Positions 18,638-29,166 of a stretch of DNA of 64,000 bases are shown here, one piece after another. The stretch is from Chloropicon primus (Eukaryota; Chlorophyta; Chloropicophyceae; Chloropicales; Chloropicaceae), in NCBI GenBank assembly GCA_023205875.1, contig CP060754.1:248001-312000 (forward strand). Reading direction: 5' to 3'. Each line of letters starts with the position of its first letter. The first letter of the stretch is position 1. The notes beneath the pieces were generated by a model. The model saw only the letters and a program-made list of their open reading frames with translations, searched no databases and was not told the origin of the DNA. The translations under genes and the position numbers were made by a program.

Positions 18638-20674
18638 CTAACCTCGGCGGTGATGCTTCCTGCACTTGCTACAGATAAAGTTTTCAGGGCAGGGCGCAGA
18701 GTCTGGATACCCATAGCACCTCGTGTGAACCCACCTGCTGCACCTCTCGCACTCGACCATTCTCTCTCCATCGTCATCTTTAGTCCCGCAGATACAATCG
18801 ACAATCCAGTCCTCCACCCCCCCGACGTGGTAGTACAACGTGTTCTTGCTAATCCCAACGCCCTTTGCGACGATGAACCTGTCTATCTTCAGGTCGCGCA
18901 GCCTCGCCTGATCCGAGATCTGGCTGGCCCTGATGCCAGAGAGGATGTCGGTCACCTTGAAGTTCTCGAAGATGGTATAAAGGTCTTTCATCGCCCGAGA
19001 AATCTCCTCCTTGAGCTGCCTCACGGTCGACGATTCGGGCAAAACGAGAACTTCGCACGGAATGGCGACCTTGTGTGCCCGGGAATGGCCCTGAGACTTG
19101 CCCCTCGGCGTTGCTATCCCGTCCTCCAGCTTAACGCTGACCAGTAAGCGAATCGCGTTCTTCATCACGGTAGGAGGTTCCCTGCTCTTAGACTCCACCT
19201 CGCAATAATAATTTTTCTCAAACTGCTTGGTGTCCAGCAAAAGCCTCACGTCCCTCTGCCACGAAGGCACGGAAGAAGACCTCGCAGACTTTGCGTCGAG
19301 TTGGTGAACAAGGGCGTTGTACAGCAGCTTCAAGTCGTTCTGGGGGTTCAAGTCCGACTTCGCCTTTGGCGTGGCCTGCCCATTCATTCCCGGCAGCACA
19401 ATTGGCAGAGCCTTCTCCCCCCTGAGAATTTCTACCTTGTATTCCAACACTCTTGTGTTGGAGTTAAACTCCCGTCTAATCATGTTCCCCCCAATGACCT
19501 GGTTCCCCATAACCTTGAGGACGAAGTCCAGCAGCCCCGTGTCCCCGATGTAGTGCCTCGCCGCATCCCTCACGTCCTGCCTCGACATCCAAGAGCTGCT
19601 GGCAGAGAGCGTGTTCAGAACGACGTAGGCTGCGAGCTTGAGCCGGTTGTCAGACCACCGGCAGGCAGGGAACTGAAAGTCGTCTATCTTGATGTTCGCC
19701 GCCTCCATGTTCGACACCAACGTCTGCTTGAATTTGGGCTTGGCAGTGTGAGTGATCTTGTTCGCCGTGGCCTGCTTCCCCTTGGCGCTCATCAACGTGG
19801 TGTTTGCCCTGTGAAGGAGGACGGACATGAGGTCGCCCAAGGTCTTCAACTTCGTTTTCCCGCCCTCTTCGTAGCTCGAGAGGGACACTATGAACTGAAG
19901 TCCGTGTTTCCTCACCTCGTTCTTGAAGGTCGATAGCGGAAAGCTGTGAAGCCTCGACACTGCGCTCTTCCACTTGGACTCGGTGATGTTGAACGGCCCA
20001 CGGCAGAAGCTGTACCCCCACTTGCCGTACCAAGTGGTCTTGTGCGCTATCGAATGCAGGAGGCGGTAAGGCAGCCCGCACTTGTGCGAGACGTCCTCTA
20101 CCGTGACCACCCTGGCCTTCAGCAGGGTGCACAGGTTGGTCCACACCTCCATCATTTGCCTCCCCGACAGGAGCAAGGACCCCCCCTCGTACCCGTTCAC
20201 CCGGAGCAGGTGGCCGAACCCGTTCGCGTGCAGGGTGCCGTGAAGGAGATGCGCCTGATTCTCCAGGAGCGCCGCCTTCACCACGCTCTCTCCGGCCCTC
20301 CAATTCAGCTCGAGCTTCCTCGCCGGGACGATGAAGTGATACGTCAGGTTACAAACGGGGTGCGAGTTCCAACCGGCTACCCTGCAGTTGTCACAGACCA
20401 CCACGCCCGTGTCCAGCACCATGCACTGTTCGAACACGTACAGATCGAGTAAATTCTTCTTCGAGCTGCTCCCTTGCGAGAAGCTCAGAGGGACGGTCCA
20501 CATTCTGCTGTAAAGGCTGTTTTGCCTGTGCTTGCTTGACCTCAAAGGGGACTTGAGGGTCCCGTAGTCCTCCAGAAAAGTTCGAACGTTCGTTCGGAAA
20601 GGCCCCACGTAGCCTCCATTCGGCGGCGAATTGGCCAGCCATGGTGAAGGCTTCGGCCTCTTCTGGCCCCCCAT
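18638..20674 (-). CDS. MMD1/MS1-type PHD-finger protein
   Basis: A 678-residue intronless protein from the ATG at 20674. The middle holds the family signature of plant MALE MEIOCYTE DEATH1 / MALE STERILITY1: a 'HANGFGHLLRVNGYEGGS' block, 'CGLPYRLLHSIAH....WYGKWGYSFCRGPF', and later a winged-helix-like 'RWSDNRLKLAAYVVLNTL...SRQDVRDAARHYIGDTGLLDFVLK'. The C-terminus is a PHD finger of Cys4-His-Cys3 type, beginning CICGTKDDDGERMVECERC and including WVHTRCYGY and CSKC. In land plants these are transcription or chromatin regulators of meiosis and pollen development; in a unicell the role is unknown, possibly the sexual cycle. It is divergent from CDKD with 150 bp between start codons. Confidence 0.8.
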   Translation of the reverse strand: MGGQKRPKPSPWLANSPPNGGYVGPFRTNVRTFLEDYGTLKSPLRSSKHRQNSLYSRMWTVPLSFSQGSSSKKNLLDLYVFEQCMVLDTGVVVCDNCRVAGWNSHPVCNLTYHFIVPARKLELNWRAGESVVKAALLENQAHLLHGTLHANGFGHLLRVNGYEGGSLLLSGRQMMEVWTNLCTLLKARVVTVEDVSHKCGLPYRLLHSIAHKTTWYGKWGYSFCRGPFNITESKWKSAVSRLHSFPLSTFKNEVRKHGLQFIVSLSSYEEGGKTKLKTLGDLMSVLLHRANTTLMSAKGKQATANKITHTAKPKFKQTLVSNMEAANIKIDDFQFPACRWSDNRLKLAAYVVLNTLSASSSWMSRQDVRDAARHYIGDTGLLDFVLKVMGNQVIGGNMIRREFNSNTRVLEYKVEILRGEKALPIVLPGMNGQATPKAKSDLNPQNDLKLLYNALVHQLDAKSARSSSVPSWQRDVRLLLDTKQFEKNYYCEVESKSREPPTVMKNAIRLLVSVKLEDGIATPRGKSQGHSRAHKVAIPCEVLVLPESSTVRQLKEEISRAMKDLYTIFENFKVTDILSGIRASQISDQARLRDLKIDRFIVAKGVGISKNTLYYHVGGVEDWIVDCICGTKDDDGERMVECERCSRWVHTRCYGYPDSAPCPENFICSKCRKHHRRG

Positions 20675-20824
20675 CCCCTCTCTCGTGTCCCCACGCAAGC
20701 AACACCCAGCCCCTCCTCCCTCTCCTTGCGCGGCTCCGCTGATTCAAAATCATCTTCGGCTTGAGGGGCAGAGGATCTCCCCCGTCGTCGAGAGGAGGGA
20801 CTGCGGGAGGTGCGTGCGTGCGCG

Positions 20825-22144
20825 ATGGAGAACTACGAGAAGGGGCCGACCCTGGGAGAGGGAACCTTCGGAAGGGTGTTCCGCGCCAAGGACAGGAGGA
20901 CGGGCCGGCTCGTGGCGATCAAGAAAATAAGGATGGGGAAGGCGAAAGAGGGGGTGAACGTCACCGCTATTAGAGAAATAAAGTTCCTCAAGGAGCTCCA
21001 GCACAAGAACGTGATCGAGCTGATAGACGTTTTCCCGCACAAGCGGAACCTCTACCTCGTGTACGAGTACATGACGAGCGATCTGGAGGCCATCATCAAG
21101 GACAAGGCGAACATAAGGCTGAAGCTCGGGGACATCAAGGCGTACATGCAGGCGATACTGGAGGGCCTCGCGGCGTGCCACAGGTACTGGATCATGCACA
21201 GGGACGTGAAGCCAAACAATATTTTGTTGGGGCCGGAGGGGCAGATAAAGCTCGCAGATTTCGGTGCGGGGAGAATATTCGGCAGCCCTAACGACAGGAA
21301 GTTCACCACCCAGGTCTTCGCCAGGTGGTACAGGGCCCCCGAGCTCCTGTTCGACTCCCAGCGGTACAGCTCCGCGGTGGACATGTGGGCGGTCGGGTGC
21401 GTCTTCGCTGAGCTCATGCTCAGGCGACCTTGGCTTCCGGGGAACAACGACCTGGAGCAGCTCTCCCTGATCTTCGACGCGTTGGGGACTCCGACAGAGG
21501 AGCAGTGGCCCGGGATGAAGTCCCTGCCGACGGCGAGCCAGGTGGTCTTCAAGCCCATAGCGCCCCCAAGCGCGGCTTCTCTTCGTCAGCTCTTCAGGTG
21601 CGACGCGGACGCCGTCGACCTCTTGCAGCAGCTTCTGTGCTTCGATCCCTCGAGGAGGATAAGCGCGGAGCACGCGCTGAAGCACCCGTACTTCAAGAGC
21701 AATCCGAGAGCCACCAAGTACGCCGACCTCCCCAAACCGACCGTGCCGTTCGGGGAGGAGCGGACGGCCGCGAACCAGGGGCTGGGCGAGCAAGTGGAAG
21801 GCTCGAAGGGAGAGGGGGGCGAGTACAATGGGGACGGGTTGGGCAAGAACTTCCTGGAGGGGATTCGGCGGAGCTCGTTCCCACCCGCCGCGAGCGACCA
21901 GATGCAGAGGGACCAAACCCAGAAGGAGTCCACGAGCGGCATGAGAATGAGCCTGCCCGCTGACGTGAAGATACAGGAGAACCAGCAGACCCCAAACATT
22001 TTGAAGAACGGGCACGACGATGAGTTCGGGAAGAGGGATAGCATGGAGCTGGAAAGGCCTCAGCTGGGGTCAGCGGACAAGGCCTACCTGAGGAAGAGGA
22101 AACTGGACATGGACCAAGCCTTTCTAGAGGCTTCGAACGACTAG
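20825..22144 (+). CDS. CDKD/CDK7-type CDK-activating kinase (TFIIH kinase)
   Basis: A 439-residue kinase from the ATG at 20825. Visible motifs: Gly loop GEGTFG (11-16), catalytic Lys in AIKK (33), NVTAIRE helix (PSTAIRE position), HRDVKPNN (125-132), DFG (145-147) and the CDK7-specific activation segment FGSPNDRKFTTQVFARWYRAPE. GSPN supplies the conserved Ser (154), while the position of the human CDK7 Thr170 is Ala (166), as in plant CDKDs with VFARWYR or VFATWYR. The C-terminal 'SADKAYLRKRKLD' also matches the plant CDKD tail. Role: activation of cell-cycle CDKs and RNA polymerase II CTD phosphorylation in TFIIH. DFGAGR replaces the usual DFGLAR. Confidence 0.9.
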   Translation: MENYEKGPTLGEGTFGRVFRAKDRRTGRLVAIKKIRMGKAKEGVNVTAIREIKFLKELQHKNVIELIDVFPHKRNLYLVYEYMTSDLEAIIKDKANIRLKLGDIKAYMQAILEGLAACHRYWIMHRDVKPNNILLGPEGQIKLADFGAGRIFGSPNDRKFTTQVFARWYRAPELLFDSQRYSSAVDMWAVGCVFAELMLRRPWLPGNNDLEQLSLIFDALGTPTEEQWPGMKSLPTASQVVFKPIAPPSAASLRQLFRCDADAVDLLQQLLCFDPSRRISAEHALKHPYFKSNPRATKYADLPKPTVPFGEERTAANQGLGEQVEGSKGEGGEYNGDGLGKNFLEGIRRSSFPPAASDQMQRDQTQKESTSGMRMSLPADVKIQENQQTPNILKNGHDDEFGKRDSMELERPQLGSADKAYLRKRKLDMDQAFLEASND

Positions 22145-22196: not shown

Positions 22197-23570
22197 TTAA
22201 TCTGGCAGCGCCGTGCCCCTCTCCAAGTTCTGCTTGATCTCCTTCGTGTACTTTCCGAAGGCCCTCTCCGCCTTTCTGTTGAAGTGGGCATTGCGGTCGT
22301 TGATGGCCCCAAAAGTCTCGTCCCTGTCCTTCCTTCTCCTGCTGAACTTCTCTGCCTTCTCCTTGCGGGCCTCGAGCTCCTTCACCATCCTGTCAACGCC
22401 AGCCTCAGACACCGGAGGGGCGACGCCGTGTAGCAGGGAGTCGCCTTCCCTGTAAAACTCTGGGTTGTTTGCCTTTGCCTTCTCATACTCCTCCATGTTG
22501 ACGTCGATCTGCTTCGTTCTCTTCTTATACGCGTTGTAGAGGCTCTTCTGGTTGAAGGCATCCCAACCGAACGCAGCTGGCTTCTTCTTCTTCTTCTTCT
22601 CGTACGCCTGCTCGGCATCCTCAGCAGACTCCAACAGGTGAGACTGCTCCTTGCTCAGACCATAAGCCTCCAGCTGCTTTGCCCTCTTCGACTTGCGCTC
22701 CTCCCACGCCATCTTGCCTCTGCTCTCTCTCTCCTCCCCAGAGCTGGCGGCTGACTTCTTCTGCTCGGCGACAACGGCGCCCTGATTGAGCTTCCTGGAC
22801 TGCTTGAGCTTCATCCTGAGGTCGAAGAGTTTTTTCTCCCGAGCCGACAGCTTCTCGTATCCCTCCGTGTCCACCCCACCCTCCTCCTCTTCCTCCTGCC
22901 CCTCTGCTCCATCCCGCTCCCCCTCCCTCTCCGCCTTCGCCTTCCCCGCCTCCTCGGCGTCCCTGAGACGCTTCAGCGACTGCGCATCCGGGTTGGCCTC
23001 CCTGTCTGCTTCTCGTGCCCTCTGCCTCTGAAGAGCCTCCTCCTTTCCGAGCTCCACCCCGCAGTCCCGGACGACAACTTCCTTGCTCGTCTTCCCGGAC
23101 TTGGAGCCCACGCTCTCAATGTACCGCACCACGTCCATACCCTCCACCACCTTGCCGAAAACGACATGCTTGCCGTCCAGCCAAGGACACGCAGCAGTGG
23201 TGAGGAAGAACTGGGATCCGTTGGTGTTCGGCCCGCTGTTCGCCATGCTCAGCACCCCAGGCCCCTCGTGCTTCAGAACGAAGTTCTCGTCGTCGAACGT
23301 TCGCCCGTAGATGGATTCCCCTCCGGTGCCGTCGTGGTTGGTGAAGTCCCCCCCCTGGCACATAAAGTTTGGGATCACCCTGTGGAAGGTGGAACCACGG
23401 TACGCAAGCTTCCTCCCACTCGTGGACGCACTCCCGCCCACGCAAAGCTCCCGGAAGTTTCTGCAAGTGTTCGGGACCACGTCATCCCTCAGCTCCGCCA
23501 CAACCCTCCCGGCCCTCTCCCCCCCCACCTCCATCTCCAAGTACACCCTCGACTTCATCCTCGACTTCAT
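22197..23570 (-). CDS. Cyclophilin-SYF2 fusion, spliceosomal peptidyl-prolyl isomerase
   Basis: One uninterrupted 457-residue frame starts at tandem ATGs (23570, 23558). Residues 7-173 are a complete cyclophilin with catalytic-site residues Arg64 and Phe69 (FHRVIPNF), Gln72 (CQGGDF), Trp130 and His135 (CPWLDGKH), so it should be active. After a charged linker, residues ~240-457 are a full SYF2 domain: [71 protein letters not shown] and the terminal [12 protein letters not shown]2 (NTC31) is a NineTeen-complex splicing factor; cyclophilins are common in spliceosomes. The frame stays open upstream of the ATG across the neighbouring gene, but that part is antisense to NOP4 and not credible. It is head-to-head with NOP4. 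Confidence 0.93.
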
Positions 23571-23762
23571 CCTCGACTGCGTCTGGCAGTCTGGCAGCTG
23601 CTGAAAGACGTGCAGGACCGGCCGGCGGCTCCGTTGCAGAGTGAGGAGTGAGGAGTGCCCAGGACGGGAGAGGGGGTCGCGAGAAGGCCGAGGGAGAGGA
23701 ATATTCGACTTATCGTCGAGTTTCAACAGGGATTTGGGGAAGAGAAGGACTTGCAAGGAAAC
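23571..23762. promoter_or_regulatory. Compact bidirectional promoter (cyclophilin-SYF2 / NOP4)
   Basis: Only 192 bp separate the start codons of two RNA-processing genes on opposite strands, so both promoters must lie here. I see no clear TATA box. Confidence 0.5.
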
Positions 23763-26159
23763 ATGGATGACCCAGCAGTGAAGAGGAAGGTGATCCTGTA
23801 CCCGGAGAGCCGAGACGTGAGCTTCGATGAGATTCAGGAGGCGGTGGAGGGCGTCGTGGGGAAGGTGCGGGGGGCGAACCCCCTGGGAAACGGGGGATGG
23901 ATTCTCCGTATGTCGAACGCGACGGAGGCAATCGAGCTCCTGCAGGCCGCGAAGAAAGGGAAGGTGATTATTGGGGGGAAGAAGGTCTCGGCGCAGCGGC
24001 CGTCTCAGGGCCAGGCCACGGACGCGAACCGCATACCTCTTGGCGGAGTGTGCGCGACCCAGGCCAGGGCCGGTCCCTTCAGAAAGGACAGGGACAACAA
24101 GAGGCAGAGGGCCTGCACGGTCGTTATCGCTCACGTCAAGCCTTCGACCAAAGAATTGATACAGAAGGTGGTTGCTGAGGCAGGCAAGGTCGGAGAGGTG
24201 AAGACTGTGAAGGGCCCGCTGAGCCCCGAGGAGATCACCGAGGAGGAGATCTCCCTGTCCCAGATCGAGGGGAAGAGGGTCGGCAGCTTCGCTGCCTCTC
24301 CGGGAATAATTCTGGCCGAGTTTGGCGCCGTTGCGCACGCCTTCGCCGCAGTGAAACTGCTGCACGGAAAGTCGGTAAAGGGTCTGCACAAGCCTCTTTG
24401 GGCTCGCCAATTGGGAGGCGAGGGAGCGAAGATCAAGTACTGGAGAATCATCGTGAGGAACCTGCCCTTCAAGATTGACGAGACGAAGTTCAAAAAGCAC
24501 ATGAGCCTGAAGAACGAGCTCTTTGTCTGGGATGTTCACATCCCCAAAGGGGCGGACGGCAGAGTCAGGGGTTTTGGCTTCATCGGGTACATCTGCAGGT
24601 CTGACGCCGAGAAGGCCATCAAGAAGCTGAACGGAACCAAGCTTGAGGGCCGCACGATCGTACTGGATTGGACCGTGGGCAAGAAGGAGTTCCAAGAGGG
24701 AATGAAGAGCCAAGAGCCGGGCGCGGTGGCCACGGAAAACGACGAGGACGACGAGGACAGCGACGGCGAGGGCGAGGAAGCTGGGGAGTACAACGAGGGA
24801 GACGAGGGCAACGATCCCGAAAGCGCAGTCGGAAACGTGGACGAGGAATCCGCAATGATGGAGAGAATTGTTAGCTCGTTCCAGGCCAATTCCACGGAGA
24901 AGCCTGAAAGTGCGAAGCAGGATCATCAAGGCGCTCGTGCTCCAATGCCCCCGAAGAGCAAGGAGGAGGAGGAGGAGGCGATCGGCAGGACAGTATTTGT
25001 GTCCCACATTCCTTTGAACGCGTACAAGATGGACGTGCAGAGGGTGATGGAGAAATTTGGACAGGTCTCGAGCTGCAGAATGGTCATCGACAAGAAGGCG
25101 AGGAAATTCTCCGGCAAAGCCTTTGTGGAGTTCGCCAAAGCGGCTTCAGCAAAGAAAGCCTCCGAAGCTCACAGCGATGCCAAGTCAGGAAAGAGGGAAA
25201 AGGTGTCCATCAACGGCCACATCGTCAACATCTATTTGGCGCTGAACAAGAACGGGATCCAGGACCTTTCTGACCAAATCAAGAGGAAGACGAACAGGCC
25301 GGACAAGAGGAACTTGTACCTTGCTGACGAGGGCCACATCGACCCAGAGTCCGGCGCCGGGGAGGGCATGTCGGAGGGCGATCTGAGAGCGAGGGAGAGG
25401 TCGCACAGGGAAAAGCTTGAGAAGCTGAAGAATCCGAACATGTTTGTGTCCAAGACAAGACTCATGATAAGAAATCTGCCGAGGGAGATGACAAAGGGAC
25501 AGCTTCGCGCGCTTTGCATCAAAGCGGTAAAGGAGAGGGCGACCAAGGCGAGGCCGAAGGTGACTCAGTGCAAGATCATGTACACCGAGAACCCGAATAC
25601 AAAGGTGCTCAAGTCGAGCGAAAGGGGATTCATCGAATTCACTGATCACGAGCACGCCATTTGCTGCCTGAGGATGCTGAACAACAACCCAAGCACGTTC
25701 ACTGTTTCTCGGCGGCCCATCGTCGAGTTTGCTGTTGAGAACACCCTCAAGGTCCAGAAGCTCAAGAAGAGAGCCTCCACAGCTTCCGAGAAGTTGGCGT
25801 TGCGCAAGTCTGAGGCGTCGACTCCGAGAGGTGGAGATGAAAGAGAGGAGGGAAGGAACGGCAAGAAGTCGAGAGAGGGGGGCAAGAAGGAAAAGACTGC
25901 AAAGGAGACCGCGGGAGAAGACGGTTGCCAGGGATCCAAGGGAAGCGAGAAGAAAAGGAAGAGCTCGGTGGAGAAGCCCGATAGGAAGAAGCCAAAGAAA
26001 TCTGCTGCGAAGGATGAAAGGGGGGACTCCGTCCAGCGGGAGGAGAGGCCTGCCAGGGCCAAGAAGAACAAAAAGCGGAAGGCTGAGGAGAAAGACAACC
26101 TTGATGACCTCATTCAGAATTACCAAGCCAAGTACTTTAACACAAGCCTGGACTACTGA
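23763..26159 (+). CDS. NOP4/RBM28-like nucleolar protein with several RRMs
   Basis: A 798-residue intronless protein from the ATG at 23763. RRM-like domains: a divergent N-terminal one (about 10-90); a divergent one near 115-210; a clear one at about 225-305 ([18 protein letters not shown] ... GFGFIGYI); then an acidic linker and another at about 405-500 ([18 protein letters not shown] ... GKAFVEFAK); and a last one at about 560-665 with [16 protein letters not shown] and [24 protein letters not shown]. The last domain, including '[11 protein letters not shown]', is typical of yeast Nop4 and human RBM28, required for 60S pre-rRNA processing. The tail is Lys/Glu/Ser-rich with nuclear-localisation-like clusters. 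Confidence 0.82.
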
Positions 26160-26720: not shown

Positions 26721-28115
26721 ATGGATATGAAAGGTGTGACCGTGCTTGGGCAGTCCGACCTGTTTCGGATGATTGAGACCGTGAAGCCTCGGAAGGCGAC
26801 GGAGGAGAAGAGGGAGAAGCTCGAGCTGAAGAAAAAGAGTGAGGCGCGGGCTGCCAAGTGGCCGAACACCATCTCAGCCCAGAGGGCGAAGAAGGAAAAG
26901 CTGAGGAGGGCGAGGCTCGATGTGGAGGAGGACGAGAGGAGGAAGATAGACGCCATCGAGGCCGAGATCATGGCCGAAAGCAGGAGGCTCCAAATCGACC
27001 GCGCGAAGAAGAAGTTGTACGACAACAACGACAGGGTGAAAGCCCTTCATAGCAGTCTTCTCCTCTCGGAGGTGCTGGACGAGCGCGTTTCCCAGATAGA
27101 GTACAAGAAGAAGATCAAGGAGCTCAGGAAGTTGGAGGCCATCGCTTTCAACGTGCAGCAAGCCAAGGAGCTCGAGGTCAAGGAGGAAGAGGAGGAGCGG
27201 GCAATCTACGCAAGAAGGAAGGCCGCCCTCGAGCAGAAGCACGAGCAGCTGAAGCAGCTCGAGCAAGTGAAAGCCAAGATCGCTTTGGAGAAGAAGCGGG
27301 ACTTGGAGGAGGGCGAGCTTCTCAGGCGGGAGGCCGAGGAGGAGGCCATTAGGCAGCACGAGAAGGAGCTCAAGGTCCGCGAGGTTGCGAGGAAGCACAC
27401 GATGGAGACGATGAAGGCCAACGATGCCCTCCAGAAGTACAAGCTCAAGGAGCTCAACAGGGAGAAGGCGGCCGAGAAGGCCCAGGAGGCGTACGCCGCG
27501 AAGAAGGAGGCCTTCCAGCTGGAGAGGAAGAGGAGGGAGGTGGAGAAGGAGAACGGGAAGCAGAAGGCGAGGGACAGGATGATCAGGCTTATGGAGGACC
27601 AACTGGAGGCCGCCAGGAAGAAGAACGAGAGGAATTACGAGCTCCAGCACCAGCAGGCGGTCGCGAAGGAGGACGGAATCCTGGCCGAGAGGGCCGAGAG
27701 GAGGAGGAAGGAAAAGATCGCGATCGACAAGAGCAGGAAGCAGCAGCTCGCCATCAGGAACGCCATGAAGGAGCAGAAGAACGCGGACGACAAGGCCTTC
27801 CTGGACGCCTGGAAGGAGAGGACGAAGGAGCTGGCCGAGGAAGACGAGCTCGAGACGAAGATGAAGTTCTGGGAGAACAAGCAGCACCAGCAGTTCTTGA
27901 AGCACCAGATGGACTTCAAGGCGAAGAAGAAGATGCAGAGGAAGACCAAGGAGTTGGAGGGCGCCTACGTCGCCGCCCTCTCTATCGCCGAGGAGGAGGA
28001 CACTTTCAAGGCCTACGCCTCCGTCTGCATCGACGAGTGGAACAAGAGAGGAAAGTCTCTCAGGCCCATGCAGCTGCTCCTGAACGCCAAGGACGCTCTG
28101 GGCTCCACCAAGTAA
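26721..28115 (+). CDS. CFAP210: CFAP210 (CCDC173)-like microtubule inner protein
   Basis: A 464-residue intronless, almost wholly alpha-helical protein rich in Lys, Glu, Arg and Ala. The N-terminal third carries the family block WPNTISAQRAKK, then RRKIDAIEAEIMAESRR, and NNDRVKALHSSLLLSEVLDERVSQIEYKKK, which aligns well with animal CFAP210/CCDC173. The C-terminus 'EEEDTFKAYASVCIDEW' matches the family's end region. CFAP210 is a filamentous protein inside the doublet microtubules of motile cilia. CFAP45 and CFAP53 were considered, but the 'DRVK.LHS.LLL.EVL.ER..QIE.KK' block favours CFAP210. A TGTAA lies 42 bases after the stop. Confidence 0.82.
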   Translation: MDMKGVTVLGQSDLFRMIETVKPRKATEEKREKLELKKKSEARAAKWPNTISAQRAKKEKLRRARLDVEEDERRKIDAIEAEIMAESRRLQIDRAKKKLYDNNDRVKALHSSLLLSEVLDERVSQIEYKKKIKELRKLEAIAFNVQQAKELEVKEEEEERAIYARRKAALEQKHEQLKQLEQVKAKIALEKKRDLEEGELLRREAEEEAIRQHEKELKVREVARKHTMETMKANDALQKYKLKELNREKAAEKAQEAYAAKKEAFQLERKRREVEKENGKQKARDRMIRLMEDQLEAARKKNERNYELQHQQAVAKEDGILAERAERRRKEKIAIDKSRKQQLAIRNAMKEQKNADDKAFLDAWKERTKELAEEDELETKMKFWENKQHQQFLKHQMDFKAKKKMQRKTKELEGAYVAALSIAEEEDTFKAYASVCIDEWNKRGKSLRPMQLLLNAKDALGSTK

Positions 28116-28376: not shown

Positions 28377-29166
28377 ATGGGCGACACCGCGGACGACGAC
28401 GCCGCGGGGCGGCTGCAACGGCTCGGCCTCGTGGGAGAAGGGAGGTGAGTTAGGGAGAGAGGGAGGGGCGTCCCGGATCTGCGGACCCGCGTTTTGCACG
28501 AGGACTGACTCGGTTTTTTTCCCTCTGCGCAGCGACCTCGCGCACGACGGTAACTCGCGGAGCGAGGAGGTCGTGGGCTCTTTCGACTCCGTGGGTCTTT
28601 CCTCGGGGTCAGCGTCGTCGCAGTCCCTCGGAACGCTCGCGTTGACCTCGAAGAGGATTGTGTGGACTCCCGACGACTCCAGCTCGGGCCCGGCCTGCTT
28701 CATAGATCTTCTCAAGGTCGTAATACACGCGCAGTCCAGCCCGACCGAAGGCAGCAAGGGTGGGATCTACCTGCAGGTCGAGGTCGAGGGCGAAGGCGAG
28801 GGCGCGGAGACCACGGAGTTCGTTCTCACCCCTCAAGACCAGTCGCTCTGTAAGTCAAAATTGCCTTTTGGCACACACCGCTTCGATCCCGTTGGCGCGG
28901 GTGACTCCAGGAAATGTTGACAGCGTTGTTGGGTTCCTCTCTCTCTTCACTGCTTCCTCTCAGTGGGCCAGATCTTTAGCACGCTCTGCGACTGCGTTGC
29001 GATGAACCCGGACCAGGGTTTTCTTGATCAGGAGGAGGGAGAAGAAGACTGTGGGGAGGGCAACGGAGCGGCGTTCTTCGTGAGCAACGGCCCCGCGAGC
29101 AGTGCCGGCGACGGCGACCTCCAGGACCTCGTGAGGGACGATCCGGACAGGTTCGCGGACGCCTGA
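28377..29166 (+). CDS. CLNS1A: pICln (CLNS1A), methylosome subunit for Sm protein assembly
   Basis: Three exons: 28377-28444, 28533-28849 and 28964-29166, 195 residues. Introns are GTGAGT...CGCAG (phase 2) and GTAAGT...CTCAG (phase 1). The spliced protein contains the PH-fold pattern of pICln: SQSLGTLALTSKRIVWTPDD, FIDLLKVVIHAQSS, GGIYLQVEVEGEGEG with a following TEFVLTPQDQSLLGQIFSTL and CDCVAMNPD, then an acidic C-terminal tail. pICln binds Sm proteins and PRMT5 and chaperones snRNP assembly. The frame cannot be read without both splices. It lies a few kb from two other RNA-processing genes. Confidence 0.85.

Follow-up and report, generated by a model that had tools for sequence, protein, structure and literature searches.

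The Chloropicon primus genome carries a cyclophilin and SYF2 joined in one intronless open reading frame of 457 codons plus stop, on the minus strand at positions 22197-23570 of the window (the whole analyzed stretch of DNA, 64,000 nucleotides), with zero internal stops in the translation. The observation of this fusion, made in a preliminary description of the sequence, is confirmed, and the interpretation given with it is partly supported. The encoded protein (P0001) is a further member of the described SYF2-cyclophilin subfamily. It is very probably the ordinary SYF2 of the alga, carrying a tethered, probably active prolyl isomerase, and docked among the NTC-related proteins of the spliceosome. 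The features discussed below are (window coordinates):

20810-22144, plus strand: convergent neighbor, CDK7-like kinase, 52 bp from the stop codon of the fusion gene (Pkinase in Pfam; CDK7 matches in the PDB)
22197-23570, minus strand: cyclophilin-SYF2 fusion gene (protein P0001), single open frame, 457 aa, ATG at 23570; homologues found
22221-22643, minus strand: SYF2 domain, residues 310-450 (Pfam, 1.2e-34; PDB SYF2 chains also matched)
22965-22994, minus strand: ten-residue linker motif, residues 193-202; a predicted helix, 194-215, starts here (pattern count and AlphaFold model)
23055-23543, minus strand: cyclophilin domain, residues 10-172, with the known active-site residues (Pfam, 3.6e-50)
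23571-23762, no strand: divergent intergenic stretch of 192 bp between the fusion gene and the NOP4-like gene (start-codon coordinates)
23763-26159, plus strand: divergent neighbor, NOP4-like RRM protein (RRM_1 in Pfam; PDB Nucleolar protein 4, 7.4e-31)

Both domains are complete or nearly so in Pfam. The Pro_isomerase domain (PF00160) matches positions 1-159 of the 159 in the profile with 170.7 bits, and the SYF2 domain (PF08231) matches positions 9-154 of 154 with 120.3 bits (curated cut-off 23.5). In an exon-by-exon search of the whole genome (17,584,162 bases in 20 contigs, the window lying on contig 1; the best candidates were scored), SYF2 gave a single match, which lies inside the fusion gene. 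A separate SYF2 gene elsewhere in the genome, for which the preliminary description had proposed a search, is rejected on this basis, and the fusion gene is apparently the only SYF2 of the alga. At the start codon, a 12-base unit is repeated in tandem (23547-23570, translated as MKSRMKSR), and therefore either of two ATG codons, at residue 1 or residue 5, could be the true start of the fusion protein.

Distribution and descent of the fusion

Cyclophilin and SYF2 had been regarded in the preliminary description as known only as separate proteins, which did not hold. In the available passages of PMC2713222 (Krucken et al. 2009), the "Cyps with SYF2 domain" are defined, SYF2-cyclophilins are tabulated for Toxoplasma, Plasmodium, Babesia, and Cryptosporidium muris (the SYF2 domain of the C. 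muris protein being incomplete), and similar proteins are named in Tetrahymena, Paramecium, and Ostreococcus tauri. The Tetrahymena gene is called CSY1 in PMC3143110 (2011), its specific properties being described as still unexplored at that time, and the Plasmodium SYF2-cyclophilins are mentioned in PMC11357558 (2024). A novel architecture is thus rejected by the papers of 2009 and 2011, and the well-known family that the preliminary description had named as a ground for refutation exists in substance, though it is little studied. Among the titles listed for papers that pair cyclophilin or peptidyl-prolyl with SYF2, no further one on an algal fusion was seen.

P0001 has the layout of the subfamily of PMC2713222, with the cyclophilin at the N-terminus (residues 10-172), SYF2 near the C-terminus (310-450 of 457), and a long, poorly conserved middle in one chain. 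The subfamily is further characterized there by a Cyp_ABH-type cyclophilin and a predicted nuclear localisation signal. P0001 differs in coming from another green alga and in being encoded by one intronless frame. In the published set, as far as it is described in those passages, there are no known features and few scattered conserved residues between the domains, whereas the chlorophyte-type fusions share one conserved motif.

Candidates were drawn from the protein database by shared words, and the counts given here refer to the matches listed, hence they are not frequencies. Two-domain proteins (cyclophilin and SYF2) make up 42 of the best 120 of 7867 matches to P0001. A second search, for which the query was the SYF2 portion of a long relative, gave 64 two-domain proteins out of 75 (45 of the 64 being new), a proportion that is no frequency because the length limits were set to exclude short SYF2-only proteins. 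In total, at least 87 fusions beyond P0001 were collected (88 with P0001, some of them partial); algal proteins hitting both profiles, which the preliminary description had suggested looking for, are thus abundant. P0291, without a Pfam domain, was excluded from the counts. Thirty of the 42 proteins align with P0001 over 97-100% of its length at 44-69% identity (among the matches listed), which excludes a chance joining of the two domains, and for the remaining 12 the best local alignment covers 37-49% of P0001. The three closest relatives among the matches listed, P0002-P0004 (sources jgi and ena), show 69-71% identity. Some of the fusions (e.g. P0027, P0054, and P0258) bear mmetsp transcript names, and a joined transcript is thereby supported in the relatives; expression as one polypeptide would be expected in C. 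primus as well.

The default doubt for a fused frame would be that two genes, overlapping or adjacent, had been merged by misassembly or through a missed intron or stop. This explanation is extremely improbable: no sign in its support was found, the frame is free of stops, two-domain relatives are present in several named genomes and in transcript sets, and a homologous chain of 563 residues is deposited in the PDB. Misassembly in particular is rejected by the two-domain relatives.

The named fusions come from Chlamydomonas, Volvox, Gonium, Haematococcus, Tetradesmus, Monoraphidium, Chlorella, Prototheca, Coccomyxa, Trebouxia, Bryopsis, and others; all legible organism names are of algae that we take to be chlorophytes. 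No alveolate fusion was identifiable among the matches listed in the protein searches. SYF2 occurs alone in 116 of 120 matches listed in the length range of 251-800, and the named proteins of this group are streptophyte. These proteins share the SYF2 domain with P0001 (53-60% identity over 93-100% of residues 225-457), as does the SYF2 chain 5mqf_N (8.3e-33), the land plant and human proteins being of the SYF2-only kind, whereas the cyclophilin domain is absent in all 116. Three SYF2-only sequences of the second search (P0275, P0283, and P0288) carry the tail of a cyclophilin at their start, which makes them resemble truncated fusions, but were counted as not fused. As the named fusions are chlorophyte and the named SYF2-only proteins streptophyte, the fusion would seem to be the form that SYF2 usually takes in Chlorophyta.

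In a SYF2 tree of 82 sequences, calculated without an outgroup (80 of the 88 fusions and 16 chosen SYF2-only proteins, 96 in total, before thinning), 68 fusions are split from 14 SYF2-only proteins by one branch with an SH-aLRT of 98. The cyclophilin tree was assembled from 35 chosen fusions, 23 chosen other cyclophilins, and 10 cyclophilins of the same genome, with one of each dropped (65 sequences). There, 34 fusions lie on one side of a branch, apart from 9 other own-genome cyclophilins, with an SH-aLRT of 84, which is below the starred level, and the outgroup branches are long. Both trees are short searches. The two branches together fit a single origin of the sampled fusions, within or before Chlorophyta. 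When the SYF2 tree is rooted at its midpoint, the SYF2-only proteins stand beside 13 fusions, including P0001, in a starred set of 27, and a loss of the cyclophilin in streptophytes would also fit this tree, which has no outgroup.

Catalytic residues and the linker

The active-site residues named in the preliminary description (Arg64, Phe69, Gln72, Trp130, and His135) are all correct, and M70, A110, F121, and L131 are also present in the alignment. These nine positions we take to be those of the active site of human CypA (cyclophilin A). Eight of them are identical in all 43 aligned fusions, while the ninth (F113) is kept in 41 and replaced by Ile in 2. The C-terminal NLERGTA word is found in 42 of the 43. 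Judging by these residues, the fused cyclophilin is probably active as a prolyl isomerase. Its relatives in the PDB score about 239-242 bits (PPIF), 226-233 bits (PPIE), and about 216-221 bits (PPIA); with PPIF above PPIE and PPIA below, an origin of the domain from PPIE is not supported by score.

The linker of P0001 is charged and about 70 residues long, running from residue 172 to a helix that starts at 243; in the fusions it is variable in length. The motif [DN]x[DEN]xx[SA]xxR[LI] is found in 78 of the 88 fusion linkers (58 of 65 after thinning), compared to 0.4 expected from shuffling, and in none of the N-terminal parts of 121 SYF2-only proteins. The count of 78 is descriptive, because this looser pattern was derived from the very sequences in which it was counted, with the shuffles and the 121 SYF2-only parts as controls, and shared descent accounts for part of it. 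The first, stricter form was present in 54 of the 88 linkers and missed P0001, while the ten linkers without the looser form include cut or partial sequences. We did not meet this motif of the fusion linkers in print. A role of the motif as a proline substrate is unsupported, the second position being often A, V, or L.

The AlphaFold model of P0001 (68 rows) has a mean pLDDT of 80.6 and a pTM of 0.45. The strands of the cyclophilin and the helices of SYF2 are well defined, and a helix is predicted in the linker at residues 194-215. The low pTM, together with the stretches under pLDDT 50 (residues 217-232 and 415-422), means that the mutual arrangement of the two halves is not reliable. The motif, at the start of the predicted helix, suggests a docking helix, as a guess.

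The variable, charged linker, the lack of a confident arrangement between the halves in the model, and the listed streptophyte SYF2 proteins that do without a cyclophilin could also be read in another way, namely that the cyclophilin is carried along passively or as a general chaperone, the SYF2 half alone being of importance to the spliceosome. This is unlikely in view of the eight active-site positions kept in every aligned fusion and of the motif kept in most of the linkers.

Place in the spliceosome and relation to PPIE

The best PDB match of P0001 is chain 8xi2_M of Chlamydomonas reinhardtii, "PPIase cyclophilin-type domain-containing protein" (563 aa, 2e-120), which covers residues 7-210 and 165-457 of P0001. 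Both halves match and the linker motif is present (NPDQDSLARL), while the Chlamydomonas chain is longer. 8XI2 is the entry of PMC11833078, which describes the Chlamydomonas C* complex and counts Syf2 and PPIL1 as NTC-related proteins in it. In its available passages the paper speaks of Syf2 only; in the main text, to the same extent, words beginning with "cyclophilin", "PPIase", and "fused" are absent, and "isomerase" appears twice, referring to PPIL1. As these passages are silent on the visibility of the cyclophilin half of 8xi2_M, this half may be disordered. The preliminary description had placed the isomerase on the NineTeen complex. The general part of this claim stands, since SYF2 is one of the NTC-related proteins of the spliceosome and the Chlamydomonas homologue is in a C* entry, and the placement of P0001 itself we infer from that homologue.

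By analogy with other eukaryotes, the C-terminal SYF2 half would anchor the protein among the NTC-related components of the spliceosome. The N-terminal cyclophilin, active as judged by its residues, would be tethered by the charged linker with its one conserved short helix, and would have proline-containing splicing factors within its reach as substrates; each SYF2-bearing spliceosome would then carry one prolyl isomerase in cis. An isomerase of this kind is fixed covalently to one subunit, and its inactivation by the change of one residue is possible. Chlamydomonas is a laboratory alga whose spliceosome map has been published, and its fusion offers a direct route to the role of a spliceosomal prolyl isomerase.

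The cyclophilin of PPIE (Cyp33), a protein found in late spliceosomes, is of the same broad type as that of P0001, but PPIE has an N-terminal RRM (PMC6315705), whereas P0001 is without an RRM in Pfam and carries SYF2. The genome has 24 cyclophilin matches, of which 23 frames were scanned against Pfam (L018, a 65-residue frame, was left out, and L025 matched no family). An RRM was found in one of the 23, L011, where it follows the cyclophilin, in the order of the PPIL4 type and not of the PPIE type (PMC2713222). Among these 23 frames, scanned one by one in a single genome, where an RRM in a far exon could be missed, there is no frame of the PPIE type; no RRM was seen by eye upstream of L009 and L007, which have a plain start and a signal-like start. 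We did not meet this missing PPIE-type frame in print, and on an absence of PPIE from green-algal spliceosomes, the literature search brought up only PMC2713222.

The missing PPIE-type frame suggests, without showing, that the fused cyclophilin takes the place of PPIE. Under this explanation, an ABH-type cyclophilin on SYF2 would replace PPIE in cis, on the intron-binding side, in algae and alveolates; we consider it improbable, although several observations agree with it. Besides the PPIL4 order of the sole RRM-cyclophilin among the scanned frames, Aquarius and Isy1, complex partners of PPIE (PMC6315705), have one match each in the genome. PPIE-like cyclophilins are missing in all apicomplexan genomes, where SYF2-cyclophilins are present, according to the available part of PMC2713222. 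SYF2 is among the contacts of PPIL1, and the RRM of PPIE is close to PRPF17 in one C* model (PMC6315705), on account of which PPIE and SYF2 may be near neighbors. PPIE is also listed among the human C* proteins that are extra relative to Chlamydomonas (PMC11833078), but the same list, in the portion available, contains BRR2, PRP22, SLU7, and others. These three are unlikely to be missing from the alga, and the absence of PPIE from 8XI2 need not mean its absence from Chlamydomonas.

Further points speak against a replacement. The fused domain scores higher against PPIF than against PPIE. The listed land plants carry SYF2 without a cyclophilin, and plant RRM-cyclophilins are placed in the hCYP33 row in PMC7641896 (as far as its table is available). 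The ciliate Stentor has a PPIE match and is without a SYF2 match in the accessible part of PMC9505925; this match covers 54% of PPIE, hence it may be another cyclophilin. The scan itself is of one genome, frame by frame, with L018 outside it and L025 without a family. It is doubtful that, in green algae and alveolates without PPIE, the SYF2-cyclophilin fills the role of PPIE as an ABH-type isomerase held covalently on SYF2, with the linker helix docking it at a set place instead of loosely; if it did, a similar enzyme would be delivered to the spliceosome in two ways. The linker helix and the missing PPIE-type frame are two leads, still tentative. The reading of P0001 as an ordinary SYF2 with a tethered isomerase is preferred.

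In two other cyclophilins of the genome (L008:1486-2841 and L010:1024-1995, on contigs 2 and 4), a CS (p23-like) domain stands at the N-terminus within a single frame.

Neighboring genes

The surroundings of the fusion gene agree with the preliminary description, in which the gene was said to share a 192-bp promoter with NOP4 and to lie near pICln. The gap between the ATG of the fusion gene (23570) and that of the divergent neighbor (23763) is indeed 192 bp, and this neighbor is an RRM protein whose sole PDB match at 1e-20 is "Nucleolar protein 4". The shared promoter is putative, being a matter of distance and geometry only. A single match to Voldacs (the pICln family) was found genome-wide, at C1:276630-277058 (28630-29058 of the window), about 5 kb from the fusion gene, with 32.0 bits against a cut-off of 22.1 and with one in-frame TGA. 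On the other side, all 8 PDB matches of the convergent kinase at 1e-95 are CDK7 (the best at 6.2e-99).

A protein with a TPH (trichohyalin-plectin homology) domain, a type of ciliary proteins, is found by Pfam at 26721-28115. The vegetative cells of Chloropicon are without flagella. Flagellar genes are retained, according to passages of PMC6731263. At 18638-20698, on the minus strand, Pfam identifies a PHD-finger protein with an At1g33420-like ubiquitin-like domain.
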